Origin: Halobacteriales archaeon QS_8_69_73
Lineage (GTDB): Archaea; Halobacteriota; Halobacteria; Halobacteriales; Haloarculaceae
DNA: 64,000 nucleotides
Reading direction: 5' to 3'
Assembly: GCA_003022945.1 (NCBI GenBank)
Contig: PXRZ01000032.1
Location: 12,076 to 76,075 of the forward strand
Shown here one piece after another: positions 46,934-63,841 of the stretch. Each line of letters opens with the position of its first letter. The stretch's first letter is position 1. The notes beneath the pieces were generated by a model that saw only the letters and a list, made by a program, of their open reading frames with translations, did not search any database and had not been told where the DNA came from. The position numbers were made by a program, and so were the translations under genes.

Positions 46934-47340
46934 TGTTTAGCTAAGAGGGAGTGGTGTACGGCAGTGATGAGGGCGTGTCCGAACGCCCCCTTCCGCTCGC
47001 GGGCTGTGGCTCACGGCTCGCTTCACTCGCCGGCAGAGCGACACTCTGCCGAGCCCTCGCTCGTTTCGCTCACGAGGACGCCGTTCGCAACGTCGAGATA
47101 CCTCGCTCCCGCTCGGTATCTCGCAACGCCTCGCTGCGCGCGGCCTGCGTGCTTGCGTCGGCTCGCTCCGCTCCGCGGCTCCCTGCGGTCACCGGCAGAG
47201 CGAAGTTCTGCCGAGCCCTCGCTCGCTTCACTCGCGAGGCCGCTCTCGCTCCGCTCGCTCGGCCTCGCGCCGCGAGCGGTCGGCCCCGTTCGAGTCCCCG
47301 CCCGACGCCGGCTGACCGGCCGGTCCTCGGTTAATCGAAT
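46934..47340. repeat. Hairpin-rich non-coding stretch with a degenerate repeat terminus
   Basis: Starts with TAGTGTTTAGCTAAGAGGG, a diverged form of the GTGTTCAGATAAG terminus. Inside, CGGCAGA...TCTGCCG hairpins occur twice (about 47031 and 47192), and CGAGATACC...GGTATCTCG once (about 47094-47123). No gene supported. Confidence 0.55.
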
Positions 47341-60088: not shown

Positions 60089-60304
60089 TCAGTCCTCCTC
60101 GTCCGGCCACCAGGTGCAGTGACCGAGCTGGTGGCCGCAGGTCCGGCAGATGACCGCCGACACGTCGTCGTCGTGGTACGTGTCGGCGGAGCTTCGCCGG
60201 AACGCCGGTTCGGTTTTCTCTTTACACTGCGGGCAGTACCGTTGGTAGGCGCCTCCGTCTCGGTCTTCGATTGAATCTCCCATCGTCACCTCGAGGTTCT
60301 CCAT
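60089..60304 (-). CDS. Small zinc-ribbon protein
   Basis: 71 residues from ATG 60304. MENLEVTMGDSIEDRDGGAY, then a zinc ribbon with CPQC near 26 and CRTCGHQLGHC near 55. A GATTTTGTTTC box on the minus strand at 60325-60335 is a correctly placed promoter for a leaderless message. Function unknown; the ribbon resembles haloarchaeal zinc-finger small proteins. Confidence 0.75.
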   Translation of the reverse strand: MENLEVTMGDSIEDRDGGAYQRYCPQCKEKTEPAFRRSSADTYHDDDVSAVICRTCGHQLGHCTWWPDEED

Positions 60305-60395
60305 TGCGACGGTGTTGGTGTCAAGAAACAAAATCACGGCGAAACGATCGCGCCGAAGCCGGGGGTCGGTGCCGCGGTCATGGCGAACGGAAAGC

Positions 60396-60404
60396 GTTAA
60401 AACC
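60396..60404 (+). promoter_or_regulatory. TATA box of tRNA-Leu
   Basis: GTTAAAACC about 40 nt before the mature 5' end of the tRNA. Confidence 0.5.
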
Positions 60405-60442
60405 GAACGACTTCGAGATGTTCGTGCGGAACGAGTTACTGC

Positions 60443-60527
60443 GCGTGGGTAGCCAAGCCAGGCCAACGGCGCAGCGTTGAGGGCGCTGTCCTGTAGAGGT
60501 CCGCCGGTTCAAATCCGGTCCCACGCA
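60443..60527 (+). tRNA. tRNA-Leu (anticodon GAG)
   Basis: 85 nt. The acceptor stem GCGTGGG pairs with CCCACGC, discriminator A. The anticodon stem CAGCG / CGCTG holds the 7-nt loop TTGAGGG, anticodon GAG, which reads CUC/CUU. A long variable arm (about TCCTGTAGAGGTC) is as expected for Leu tRNAs. T-arm CCGGTTCAAATCCGG is canonical. No intron seen. Behind it lie three further copies of its T-arm and 3' acceptor strand. Confidence 0.93.
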
Positions 60528-60936
60528 CGTCCTGCCGCGAGTACGCTCGCGAGCGGCGGGGCTGCCGACCGGATTTGTACCCCAGAAGACGCAGCGCGAG
60601 CGAAGTGAGCGACCGTCTTCCTCCGGTTCAAATCCGGTCCCACGCACTGAACGGACGCCGACGAGCGAAGCGAGTCGGCTGGAGTGAGGGAGTCGGACCG
60701 GATTCGAAGTAGACCGAGGTTCTGCGCCGCAGGCGCAGGTTCTCGGCCGTGGTTCAAATCCGGTCCCACGCATATTCTGCCGCGAGCACGTTCGGGAGCG
60801 GTAGGGCTGCCGACCGGATTTGAGCCCTGCCAGTCGCGCGCAGCGAACGACGTGAGCGAGCACGTCTGGCTCTGGTTCAAATCCGGTCCCACGCATGTCC
60901 TGCCGCGAGTACGCTCGCGAGCGGCGGGGCTGCCGA
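60506..60936 (+). repeat. Array of tRNA-Leu 3' tails with compound hairpins
   Basis: The last 22 nt of the tRNA (60506-60527) recur exactly at 60625-60646, 60751-60772 and 60874-60895, spaced 119, 126 and 123 bp. Each unit also has an inverted T-arm copy (GACCGGATTTG, with one change in unit 2) at 60567, 60696 and 60812 so that the outer arms pair, and an inner hairpin that differs in sequence but keeps pairing (for example CTGCGCC / GGCGCAG with loop GCA at 60722-60738). A spacer hairpin (CGCGAG / CTCGCG, loop TACG) follows the first and last tails. No gene is supported. Confidence 0.85.
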
Positions 60937-61052
60937 CTCCGCAAGAATGGGCGAAGACCACCTTCTCCCGCTCGGATGGCCTTGAGGCGCCCGAACGAGT
61001 TGGATCTGGTCCGTCGGGCCGCCGGAACCACCAACTGCCGCCGCTCCCGCGG

Positions 61053-61535
61053 TCAGCAGGGCTGTACCCACCGTATTTCCGGCCCGACGGTTTCGTTTTC
61101 TCTGACCAGCAGCACGTGAATCCGCTCGAGGACGTTCGGCGTGTCGGCGGCACACGGACGAAAGTGGTAGTGCGAATACTCGGCGTCCCTCGCCGGCGGT
61201 GCCCCGACGCGGACACGTACCCGGTAGGGTTGGCTCTCGACGCGGAACTCCCTGCTGCTCATCTCCTCAGCGCCCTCGTCGGATCCGGTGTCGGCCGCCT
61301 GCGCCAGCGTGAACCGCTCCTCAAGCTGCCGGCCCGTCTCGACCTCGCCTGCCTCGCTCCGGACCAGTTCCAGGTACACCTCGTGGCTCGCCGTCGTATC
61401 ATTGTTCCAAATCTTGATCATGAGCTCCGAGGACTCCTCGTCCTGGAGAGCGTCAGCCGAACAGCCAGCAACTCCGACGCTCAACCCCGCACCTGCGAGA
61501 CGGAGTGTGTCTCGCCGCGACAACCGCCGTGTCAT
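61053..61535 (-). CDS. Tat-exported lipoprotein, unknown function
   Basis: 160 residues from ATG 61535, with an AAGACTTTTTTCC promoter 24-35 nt upstream on the minus strand. Tat motif SRRDTLRLAGAGLSVGVAGC, lipobox Cys near 25. The mature domain is β-rich (LMIKIWNNDTTASHEVYLELVRSE) with a late pair of Cys (RPCAADTP, and the C-terminal Cys). Similar single-domain lipoproteins are common in haloarchaea. Confidence 0.8.
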   Translation of the reverse strand: MTRRLSRRDTLRLAGAGLSVGVAGCSADALQDEESSELMIKIWNNDTTASHEVYLELVRSEAGEVETGRQLEERFTLAQAADTGSDEGAEEMSSREFRVESQPYRVRVRVGAPPARDAEYSHYHFRPCAADTPNVLERIHVLLVRENETVGPEIRWVQPC

Positions 61536-62550: not shown

Positions 62551-63156
62551 TCACGGCGCCCGCTCGGCGACGAGAACGCCGACCTGTTCGTGGACCATCT
62601 CGACGGCGGTCACGGCGAAGCCCGCCGCCGTCAGCGCGTCAGCGAGCACTCCGACCGTCGCCGGGTCGTCGACCGCGGGGCTGTAGAACGGCTCCTCGGG
62701 GTCCGGCTCGCCGAAGAACATCACGTCCCCGAGGACGAACCGCCGCGGCTCCATCCCGGCGACGACGTCGATTGCAGCCCTTTTTTCCCCGTCGGCGAGG
62801 TGATGCATCGCGAAGTTCGAGACGACGATGTCCGTCGGGCCGTCGTAGTTCGGCTCCCGGAAGCTCCCCTCTCCGACCGTGATGTCGTCGAGGCCGCGCT
62901 CGGCGGCCTTCCGGCGGGCCCGTTCCATCATCCCCTCGCTGATGTCGCGGCCGACGACCCGGTCGGCGTCGGTCGCCAGCCGGAGCCCGACCGCACCCGT
63001 CCCACAGCCCAGGTCGACGACGATGTCGTCCGGGTCGGGGTCGGCGTGGTCGACGACGAGCGAGACGCAGGCGCGGTACTCCGGGGTGGTGTCGTCGTCG
63101 TAGTCGGCGGCCTTCTCGTCGAAGCGGGCGGCGTGTTCCTCATGACTTCTCTTCAT
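62551..63156 (-). CDS. Class I SAM-dependent methyltransferase
   Basis: 201 residues from ATG 63156. VVDLGCGTGAVGLRLATDADRVVGRDISEGMMERARRKA carries motif I (D-L-G-C-G-T-G) and the acidic end of strand 2; VVSNFAMHHLADGEKRAAI and RRFVLGDVMFFGEPD are later motifs. Small-molecule or tRNA target unknown. It overlaps rnp3 by 17 nt, so they are co-transcribed. Confidence 0.87.
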   Translation of the reverse strand: MKRSHEEHAARFDEKAADYDDDTTPEYRACVSLVVDHADPDPDDIVVDLGCGTGAVGLRLATDADRVVGRDISEGMMERARRKAAERGLDDITVGEGSFREPNYDGPTDIVVSNFAMHHLADGEKRAAIDVVAGMEPRRFVLGDVMFFGEPDPEEPFYSPAVDDPATVGVLADALTAAGFAVTAVEMVHEQVGVLVAERAP

Positions 63157-63841
63157 GCTCGTGGTCGTCGATACGCACGCCGGGCTCCATGAACGTCTCG
63201 GAGCGGCGCCGTCGGTTGCGGGCGGCGAGTTCGCCCCACCGTGCCAGCCCGGCCTCGACGGTCCCGCGGTCGAGGCCGACGGCCTCGCCGACGGCGCACA
63301 GCTCCCGCGGCGCCCGGAGCTCGAGGTGCGAGCGGGCGTCCGCCGAGACGACGAACGGCGCGTCGTACTGCTCGACGAGCTCGCGCAGCTTCCGCAGTCC
63401 TTCGACCGCCCGGACCCGGGCGCCGCCGTCGCGCCGGAGGACGCGCCCGAGGTTGAACTCCAGGTGGACGCCGTTGTCGGCGGCGGCCCTCGCGAGGACG
63501 TGGTTGACGTCGCCGTCCCGCATCGGGTGTGCGAGCACGTCCACCTTCGGCTGCTCGACCGCGAAGCGGTTCAGCGGGCCGCCGTGGACGCAGACGAGTT
63601 CCCGCTTCGAGCGGTAGTTGCCGACGAGCCCGCTGGCCCGGCCGGCGTCGTCGGTCCGAATCTCGATGCCCCGGACAATGTCGATGTCGGAGGCATCGGC
63701 GACCGCCCCGGCGTCGTACTCCGGCTGGGCGTCGCCGTGGTTGCGGACGGCCACCCCCTCGTAGCCGCGGTCGGCGGCCGTCCGCGCCAGCCGGGCGACC
63801 GTCGCCTCGCCGTCGGGATACGCGTGGACGGCCTCGTACAT
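63140..63841 (-). CDS. rnp3: Ribonuclease P protein component 3 (Rpp30)
   Basis: 233 residues from ATG 63841. PHP/TIM-barrel-like fold of Rpp30: YEAVHAYPDGEATVARLARTAADRGYEGVAVRNHG, VDVLAHPMRDGDVNHVLARAAADNGVHLEFNLGRVLR, and VVSADARSHLELRAPREL. Part of the archaeal RNase P that trims tRNA 5' ends. Overlaps the methyltransferase gene. Confidence 0.94.
   Translation of the reverse strand: MYEAVHAYPDGEATVARLARTAADRGYEGVAVRNHGDAQPEYDAGAVADASDIDIVRGIEIRTDDAGRASGLVGNYRSKRELVCVHGGPLNRFAVEQPKVDVLAHPMRDGDVNHVLARAAADNGVHLEFNLGRVLRRDGGARVRAVEGLRKLRELVEQYDAPFVVSADARSHLELRAPRELCAVGEAVGLDRGTVEAGLARWGELAARNRRRRSETFMEPGVRIDDHEHEEKS

Follow-up and report, generated by a model that had tools for sequence, protein, structure and literature searches.

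No landing site of mobile DNA is better known than the transfer RNA gene. The integrative elements that target these genes are kilobases in size, encode an integrase, and leave a direct repeat of the 3' part of the tRNA. We know of no integrative element that carries an inverted tail or forms arrays of 120-nt units. Integrons and CRISPR arrays are composed of tandem cassettes between repeats, with new cassettes added at one end, and the integron site is a folded hairpin whose attC core follows the consensus G/TTRRRY. To our knowledge, neither an integrase nor a Cas protein is associated with the haloarchaeal units described below. MITEs have terminal inverted repeats, a short target duplication, and transposon kin.

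The 3' ends of tRNA genes are named as classic integration targets, with a direct repeat of the tRNA 3' part, in the accessible portion of PMC9897764, and the same end is the target of archaeal tyrosine-recombinase integrative elements (accessible portion of PMC8371274). Short non-coding mobile repeats are also described from haloarchaea. The part of PMC3119063 available to us reports the palindrome-bearing PATEs and other small mobile repeats of Haloquadratum, describes them as producing no target duplication, and mentions no tie of PATEs to tRNA genes. The closest described layout is that of RtT RNA (RF00391, rttR) in the tyrT-tyrV operon of Escherichia coli, where tandem units stand behind a tRNA gene and each ends in a tRNA tail. 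RtT is described, in the accessible text of PMC4986893, as a small RNA released from the tRNA transcript.

The window is the whole 64,000-nt stretch of haloarchaeal DNA that was analyzed. On its + strand, the tRNA-Leu(GAG) gene occupies 60443-60527 according to Rfam or 60443-60528 according to ARAGORN and is followed, on the same strand, by three complete units and one truncated unit. The parent tail (GGTTCAAATCCGGTCCCACGCA; 60506-60527), a 22-nt stretch that starts with the T loop and ends with the discriminator, is duplicated in each complete unit. Unit 1 (60528-60646, 119 nt) is composed of hairpin A (60529-60562), an inverted T arm (60567-60581), a hairpin B core, and the tail copy (60625-60646). 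Unit 2 (60647-60772, 126 nt) has hairpin A GCCGACGAGCGAAGCGAGTCGGC, the inverted arm at 60692-60708, a hairpin B core, and the tail copy at 60751-60772. Unit 3 (60773-60895, 123 nt) repeats this order with hairpin A at 60775-60806, the inverted arm at 60812-60826, a hairpin B core, and the tail copy at 60874-60895. In every unit, hairpin A comes first, and the inverted T arm then pairs with the tail around a GC-rich hairpin B. The truncated fourth unit (60896-60937) is hairpin A only and is identical in sequence to hairpin A of unit 1. Hairpin A of unit 2 is unlike that of units 1, 3, and 4. The hairpin B core of unit 3 is ~90% identical to a unit behind tRNA-Val(CAC) in the same genome.

A sequence-only reading of this DNA had reported three recurrences of the 22-nt tRNA-Leu tail at a spacing of about 120 bp, and exact copies were found with periods of 119, 126, and 123 nt. 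Three exact recurrences of 22 nt within 400 nt would lie beyond chance. The same reading had an inverted T-arm copy pairing with the tail in each unit, and this arm was located in all three. The B hairpins on the inverted arms have folding z scores of -5.6, -6.6, and -5.5, with none of 200 shuffles equally stable in each case, and the RNA fold of 60529-60940 (412 nt) has a z of -6.3, matched by none of 100 shuffles. Among the inner stems it had proposed, GAAGACG/CGTCTTC in unit 1 and CCGAG/CTCGG around CTGCGCC/GGCGCAG in unit 2 are present in the predicted folds; CGTG/CACG in unit 3 falls outside the minimum-energy fold.

Set beside the known systems, the haloarchaeal units resemble PATEs in being short and non-coding, and tRNA-targeted integrative elements in their site. 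Unlike a PATE or another IS605-derived element, each complete unit duplicates the 22-nt tail, and the units stand behind tRNAs. Unlike a tRNA-targeted integrative element, the units (median 123 nt) are too short to encode an integrase. They show hairpins and a 22-nt duplication where a MITE shows terminal inverted repeats and a short target duplication. No captured genes or spacers are recognized in them, in contrast to integrons and CRISPR arrays, and their site is a tRNA tail. The T loop of the units reads GTTCRAA, beside the attC core G/TTRRRY.

The flanking genes checked by Pfam are ordinary: an alanyl-tRNA editing type protein, an HVO_2718-like regulator, DUF420, a methyltransferase, and RNase P p30. 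The gene for this RNase P subunit lies at 63140-63841, 2.2 kb from the array. A search of 60300-61100 against Rfam at E values up to 1 returned no family besides tRNA. Three long open reading frames cross the array, one of which encodes RGTGFEP; none of the three matched a Pfam family, which fits the earlier proposal that such repeats give rise to spurious GTGFEP-type proteins. The literature search for GTGFEP-type motifs returned no paper containing them.

Each unit could be the remnant of an integrase-borne island that once integrated into the tRNA. Transfer RNA 3' ends are classic targets of such islands (PMC9897764, in its accessible portion), and the window genome itself holds a tRNA-Leu remnant ~1.4 kb behind tRNA-Leu(TAG) and its array. 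That remnant, however, keeps a longer part of the tRNA, and no hairpin was seen before it. Unit length, moreover, is fairly uniform (median 123, quartiles 108-140), each unit has two hairpins, and no integrase was found among the 20 window ORFs examined by Pfam, in agreement with the sequence-only reading. This origin of the units is highly improbable in our judgment. The remnant behind tRNA-Leu(TAG) (L009), a tRNA-Leu 3' end longer than the unit tails, is itself probably the end of an old integrated element.

The tie to tRNA genes was counted in three haloarchaeal genomes: the window genome (G000), a close relative (G011), and a single-contig genome (G022). This sample is not biased towards loci with units, and its denominators keep a few false ARAGORN tRNAs. 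A copy of the tail at 78% identity or more was found within 600 nt downstream of 46/112 tRNA genes (14/34 in G000, 17/36 in G011, and 15/42 in G022) and within 600 nt upstream of 0/112. No copy was found at this threshold for 66/112, and one tRNA of the 112 had its own tail behind a different tRNA. With a looser cut-off (17/24 nt, 1.5 kb), an upstream copy was found at two tRNAs of the window genome, Arg(tct) and Leu(tag). The tRNAs with tail copies in this genome are Val(CAC), Val(TAC), Gly(GCC), Arg(CCG), Arg(TCG), Tyr, both Lys, Pro, Glu, Asn, Ser(CGA), Leu(TAG), and Leu(GAG). Excluded from these counts, and from the tests of array decay, indels, and arms below, were tRNAs without a recognizable T loop, those longer than ~130-150 nt, and those near a contig end.

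Other haloarchaeal genomes were searched with a pattern that makes no reference to tRNA genes (an inverted T loop, 20-50 nt, and a T loop). It matched 87/145 genomes of the class, in 39/58 genera, and its reversed control matched 0/145. A scan of the phylum found 32/294 genomes positive, all among the 53 of the window's order, with 0/241 positive outside that order. The window genome has no exact match to the pattern, so the pattern undercounts. A scan of one genome per species gave at least 119 stretches; among the matches listed, 108 are haloarchaeal by title and 11 are not. Taking 110 of 149 pattern loci (30 from the class scan and 80/119 from the one-genome-per-species scan, including one Woesearchaeota unit, L161, and one hairpin counted twice, L098 and L212), 99/111 hairpins stand 17-275 nt behind a tRNA on the same strand, of 29 tRNA kinds. 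Among the 12 others, L148, L149, L150, and L214 are bacterial, L140 and L152 are at the start of a contig, and the remaining six, by our reading, come after a remnant of a tRNA, a split tRNA, or one truncated at a contig end. The evidence as a whole suggests that hairpin cassettes matched to the local tRNA have been gained at a large share of the tRNA genes of haloarchaea. The wide distribution surmised from the sequence was thus borne out by the genome searches. That the units were overlooked is suggested by the literature searched, which held no description of them and left most subscription papers outside its range.

The tRNA-Leu(GAG) locus has other occupants in relatives. In many of them (L057-L064, L066, L067, L069-L073), a short conserved hairpin type, CAGTGCGGGTGCTCGAAGACAGCACCCACGCA, lies behind tRNA-Leu(GAG), mimics the tRNA-Leu acceptor end, and mostly replaces the units. 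In L065 and L066, the 3' part of the tRNA is repeated behind tRNA-Leu(GAG), with hairpins inserted inside its T arm.

The ends of the units follow the tRNA that they stand behind. Past the T loop, the tail is on average 88% identical to that of its own tRNA, with 79/99 units at 80% or more; against the tRNA of another unit the identity is 47%, and 9.5% of 200 draws reach 80%. The variable base of the inverted arm pairs with the direct copy in 93/99 units and with the tRNA's own base in 95/99 (arm against copy at the variable T-loop base, Fisher p 1e-18). Five units stand behind tRNAs whose T loops are unusual; in four of them the local T loop is the better match for the inverted arm, and in the fifth the match is equal. 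This test and the first wobble tally included the non-haloarchaeal loci L215, L223, L238, L246, L247, and L250, which were left out of the nearest-core and array-decay tests and of the analysis that gave the acceptor-part figures and the wobble counts over hairpin B as a whole. On average, the inverted arm is only weakly local in its acceptor part (5.5 vs 5.2 of 11), which speaks against cassette gain. Outside the inverted arm, pairing with the acceptor part was near the control in 50 units, except at the first two positions, and slightly above it in a looser test.

The interiors are shared among tRNAs. In one genome (G061), hairpins A and B are nearly identical behind Arg(ccg), Arg(tct), and Lys(ttt), and the arms and tails differ with the tRNA. 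Among 210 haloarchaeal units under 110 genome labels, the nearest core stands at another tRNA kind for 146 and at the same kind for 64 (15 by permutation), and the nearest interior is under the same genome label for 25 (2.7 by permutation). Some genomes are under two labels, so the same-kind figure of 64 is, if anything, too high. These counts indicate that interiors are to some extent inherited together with their tRNA and have often moved from one tRNA to another; the share at the same kind would reflect partly vertical inheritance, a point against cassette gain. In different genomes, the same tRNA often carries another core or none.

The inner stems covary, with pairing in 396/485 cells; shuffles gave a mean of 273 and at most 304. 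Tandem G.A tips with a GNA loop occur on the tRNA-sense strand in 47/97 distinct hairpins and on the other strand in 1/97, and the strand that folds is probably the sense strand. In the T arms, G.T pairs exceed A.C pairs by 75 to 26, or by 35 to 14 when each core cluster is represented by a single unit. An initial conclusion that RNA-type pairing is absent, drawn from a first tally of 41 G.T and 70 A.C, was withdrawn, as A.C contexts in the tip caused the excess and the T arms favor G.T. The tip motif CGARCGNAGYGAG, with its GNA loop and tandem G.A, was dropped as a marker of units because its 128 copies in the window genome are far above the number of units. The reversed pattern gives 37 copies there. 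Three sites of this motif lie in the window, one of them (47245-47257) 13 kb from the tRNA-Leu(GAG) gene, and it is a general haloarchaeal hairpin.

Strand bias, the G.T excess in the arms, and covarying inner stems would all be expected of selected, tRNA-coupled small RNAs like RtT, which would be transcribed with the tRNA, cut at each tail by tRNA-processing enzymes, and copied by ordinary duplication and recombination. The E. coli RtT repeats, with the same layout and a released transcript (PMC4986893, accessible text), offer a precedent, and structure kept for an RNA function could stand in place of cassette gain. Over hairpin B as a whole, however, there are 92 G.T and 99 A.C, and the tRNA stems of the same genomes have 73 G.T and 0 A.C; two recurrent contexts make up 57/61 of the A.C cells in the hairpin tip. 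A.C also exceeds G.T, 16 to 7, at the variable T-loop base. Wobble pairs do not separate RNA from sense-strand DNA. The frequent change or absence of the core behind the same tRNA in other genomes, and the 66/112 tRNAs without a copy at the threshold used, also count against selected small RNAs, which we consider unlikely. Selection for structure, as the sequence-only reading had put it, is half sustained: the covariation is real, in the inner stems and in the arm base that pairs with the direct copy, but arm-to-arm copying by template switching could give an equal pattern.

Template switching is at the center of another explanation, in which the units are by-products of replication. Hairpins would stall the fork, the new strand would switch template onto the tRNA tail and so give rise to inverted and direct copies of it, and gene conversion between loci would move the interiors, with no element and no function involved. 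Local arms, arm pairing, and the swaps of hairpin B cores that keep hairpin A (unit 1 of Leu(gag), and Lys(ttt)) are all explained in this way, as is the occurrence of the same layout with unrelated-looking cores in E. coli, Alphaproteobacteria, and Woesearchaeota. Units that share both hairpins across tRNAs, by contrast, need transfer in trans at precise borders, and the excess of G.T over A.C in the arms suggests strand-specific upkeep. A pure by-product of replication is, on this evidence, distinctly unlikely.

Turnover was followed between close relatives at syntenic loci, and loci without matching upstream flanks were dropped. The genomes G000 and G011 differ by entire units, with borders exactly at the tails. 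A Val(tac) unit is in G000 and absent from G011, and indels directly behind the tRNA were found at Glu(ctc) (108 nt), Ala(ggc) (173 nt), and Val(cac) (126 nt), with tails matching at 21-22/22, and further at Gly(gcc) (149 nt) and Arg(tcg) (44 nt). At 22 loci, this pair has eight clean indels of at least 40 nt, six proximal and two distal, with a tail copy recognized in 4/8 and none recognized in 4/8. The pair G061 and G046 has 22 clean indels at 29 loci, nine proximal and 13 distal, with a tail recognized in 12/22 and none in 10/22. Both pairs together give 15/30 proximal. The 13/22 distal indels of G061/G046 and the many indels without a recognized tail weigh against cassette gain, and presence and absence can also come about by loss through recombination between the 22-nt direct repeats.

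Tails also diverge with distance from the tRNA. In 92 arrays with two or more copies, a sample biased towards loci with units, the proximal tail is nearer to the tRNA in 49, the distal tail in 11, and 32 are ties (sign test p 8e-7). At Val(cac), A (GGTTCAAATCC) is found in the newest unit and the present tRNA of G011, and G (GGTTCGAATCC) in the older units and in the tRNA of G000. It seems that every unit preserves the tail that was current when it arose.

Placement of a cassette at the tRNA 3' end is the explanation most favored by the duplicated tails, the local arms, the sharing of interiors, the precise gain or loss of units, often next to the tRNA, and the decay with distance. We hold it reasonably probable that tRNA 3' ends have repeatedly acquired miniature non-coding cassettes, each time with the tail duplicated, and that the interiors of these cassettes spread in trans. 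Each gain would add hairpin A, the inverted arm, and hairpin B, ~95-110 nt of new sequence in all, directly behind the tRNA and leave a second copy of the 22-nt tail at the far end of the cassette. Because the tail is copied at the far end, the tRNA would stay whole and the new tail could serve again. This duplication, which runs from the T loop to the end of the tRNA, would be the analogue of a target duplication. Interiors would move in trans between tRNA genes, with the tail and the pairing arm following the local tRNA, and the tRNA-sense strand would fold into the hairpin. Older units would be pushed outwards, decay, or be lost by recombination between tails, and the differences between relatives would mostly be gains. 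A recombinase, or a replication-linked process, that recognizes the folded T-arm sequence may make the gains, and copying inside the hairpin may produce the inverted arm or hold it to the local sequence. A folded site with proximal addition can be likened to an integron, by analogy. No candidate for a mobilizing enzyme was found. Serial integration of a miniature element, as the sequence-only reading had proposed, is well supported in outline by the precise presence or absence of units in relatives and by interiors common to several tRNAs; the locally matched inverted arm that accompanies the 22-nt tail is unexplained by an ordinary integrase product.

The design extends to bacteria and to another archaeal lineage. 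In the E. coli tyrT-tyrV region, there are four RtT matches, and each repeat has a tRNA-Tyr tail, an inverted tail (GGGGAAGGAT), and GA-type hairpins; the inverted tail pairs with the direct tail (ATCCTTCCCCCACCACCA) as in the haloarchaeal units. An RtT unit of E. coli matches 1-9 places (median 2) in 4680/5426 E. coli genomes, which suggests that its copy number varies. A similar core stands behind argV/argY/argZ of the argV-argQ operon, with scores of 31 and 29 bits under the threshold of 45; the tail there is that of tRNA-Arg, and its inverse, GGGAGGAT, is shorter. Over five tRNA regions of E. coli K-12, RtT was found above threshold in one and weakly in a second. Two annotated K-12 genes may be spurious (L254): tpr ('protamine-like protein'), whose coding sequence falls within an RtT repeat, and ychS, which overlaps the adjoining RtT matches.

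The Rfam model RF00391 matched none of 145 haloarchaeal genomes under stricter filters, with control matches in E. coli only, and did not match 60300-61100 of the window at E values up to 1. By this model the haloarchaeal units are not RtT members, although they follow the RtT plan. They are shorter (median 123 nt against a 178-nt period) and stand behind ~40% of tRNAs in three genomes, compared with RtT in one or two of five K-12 tRNA regions. In an alphaproteobacterial MAG, a near-perfect 100-nt array stands behind tRNA-Pro(CGG), and another such MAG has a unit behind tRNA-Pro(GGG). A Woesearchaeota MAG has a unit behind tRNA-Ser(CGA). By eye, the interiors of the E. coli, alphaproteobacterial, Woesearchaeota, and haloarchaeal units look unrelated. 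Near-perfect palindromes, GGATTTGAACC...GGTTCAAATCC, were also seen in Bifidobacterium contigs (L149, L150) and similar viral contigs (L409-L412, L414), mostly with ATGCCCCGCTAC on one side and with no tRNA found close by. Of seven viral-contig stretches, these five palindromes have no tRNA within 600 nt, and L413 and L415 overlap ARAGORN tRNA calls.

Short repeats behind tRNA genes are easily skipped or read as proteins. The E. coli RtT repeats may be one case of a wider design. It can tentatively be proposed, as a rather unlikely possibility, that the haloarchaeal units belong to a general, unnamed class of tRNA-tail hairpin cassettes in both prokaryotic domains, spanning haloarchaea genome-wide, enterobacterial RtT, Alphaproteobacteria, and Woesearchaeota. 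Its members would have one design with unrelated interiors, and a recombination process that reads the folded T arm would add them next to the tRNA, so that the arrays form a dated record of past tRNA sequences. If haloarchaeal tRNA genes do carry gained cassettes and RtT is one case of a wider design, the arrays would be usable as a record of insertion order, the mobilizing process would become searchable, and a source of spurious protein annotations would be explained.
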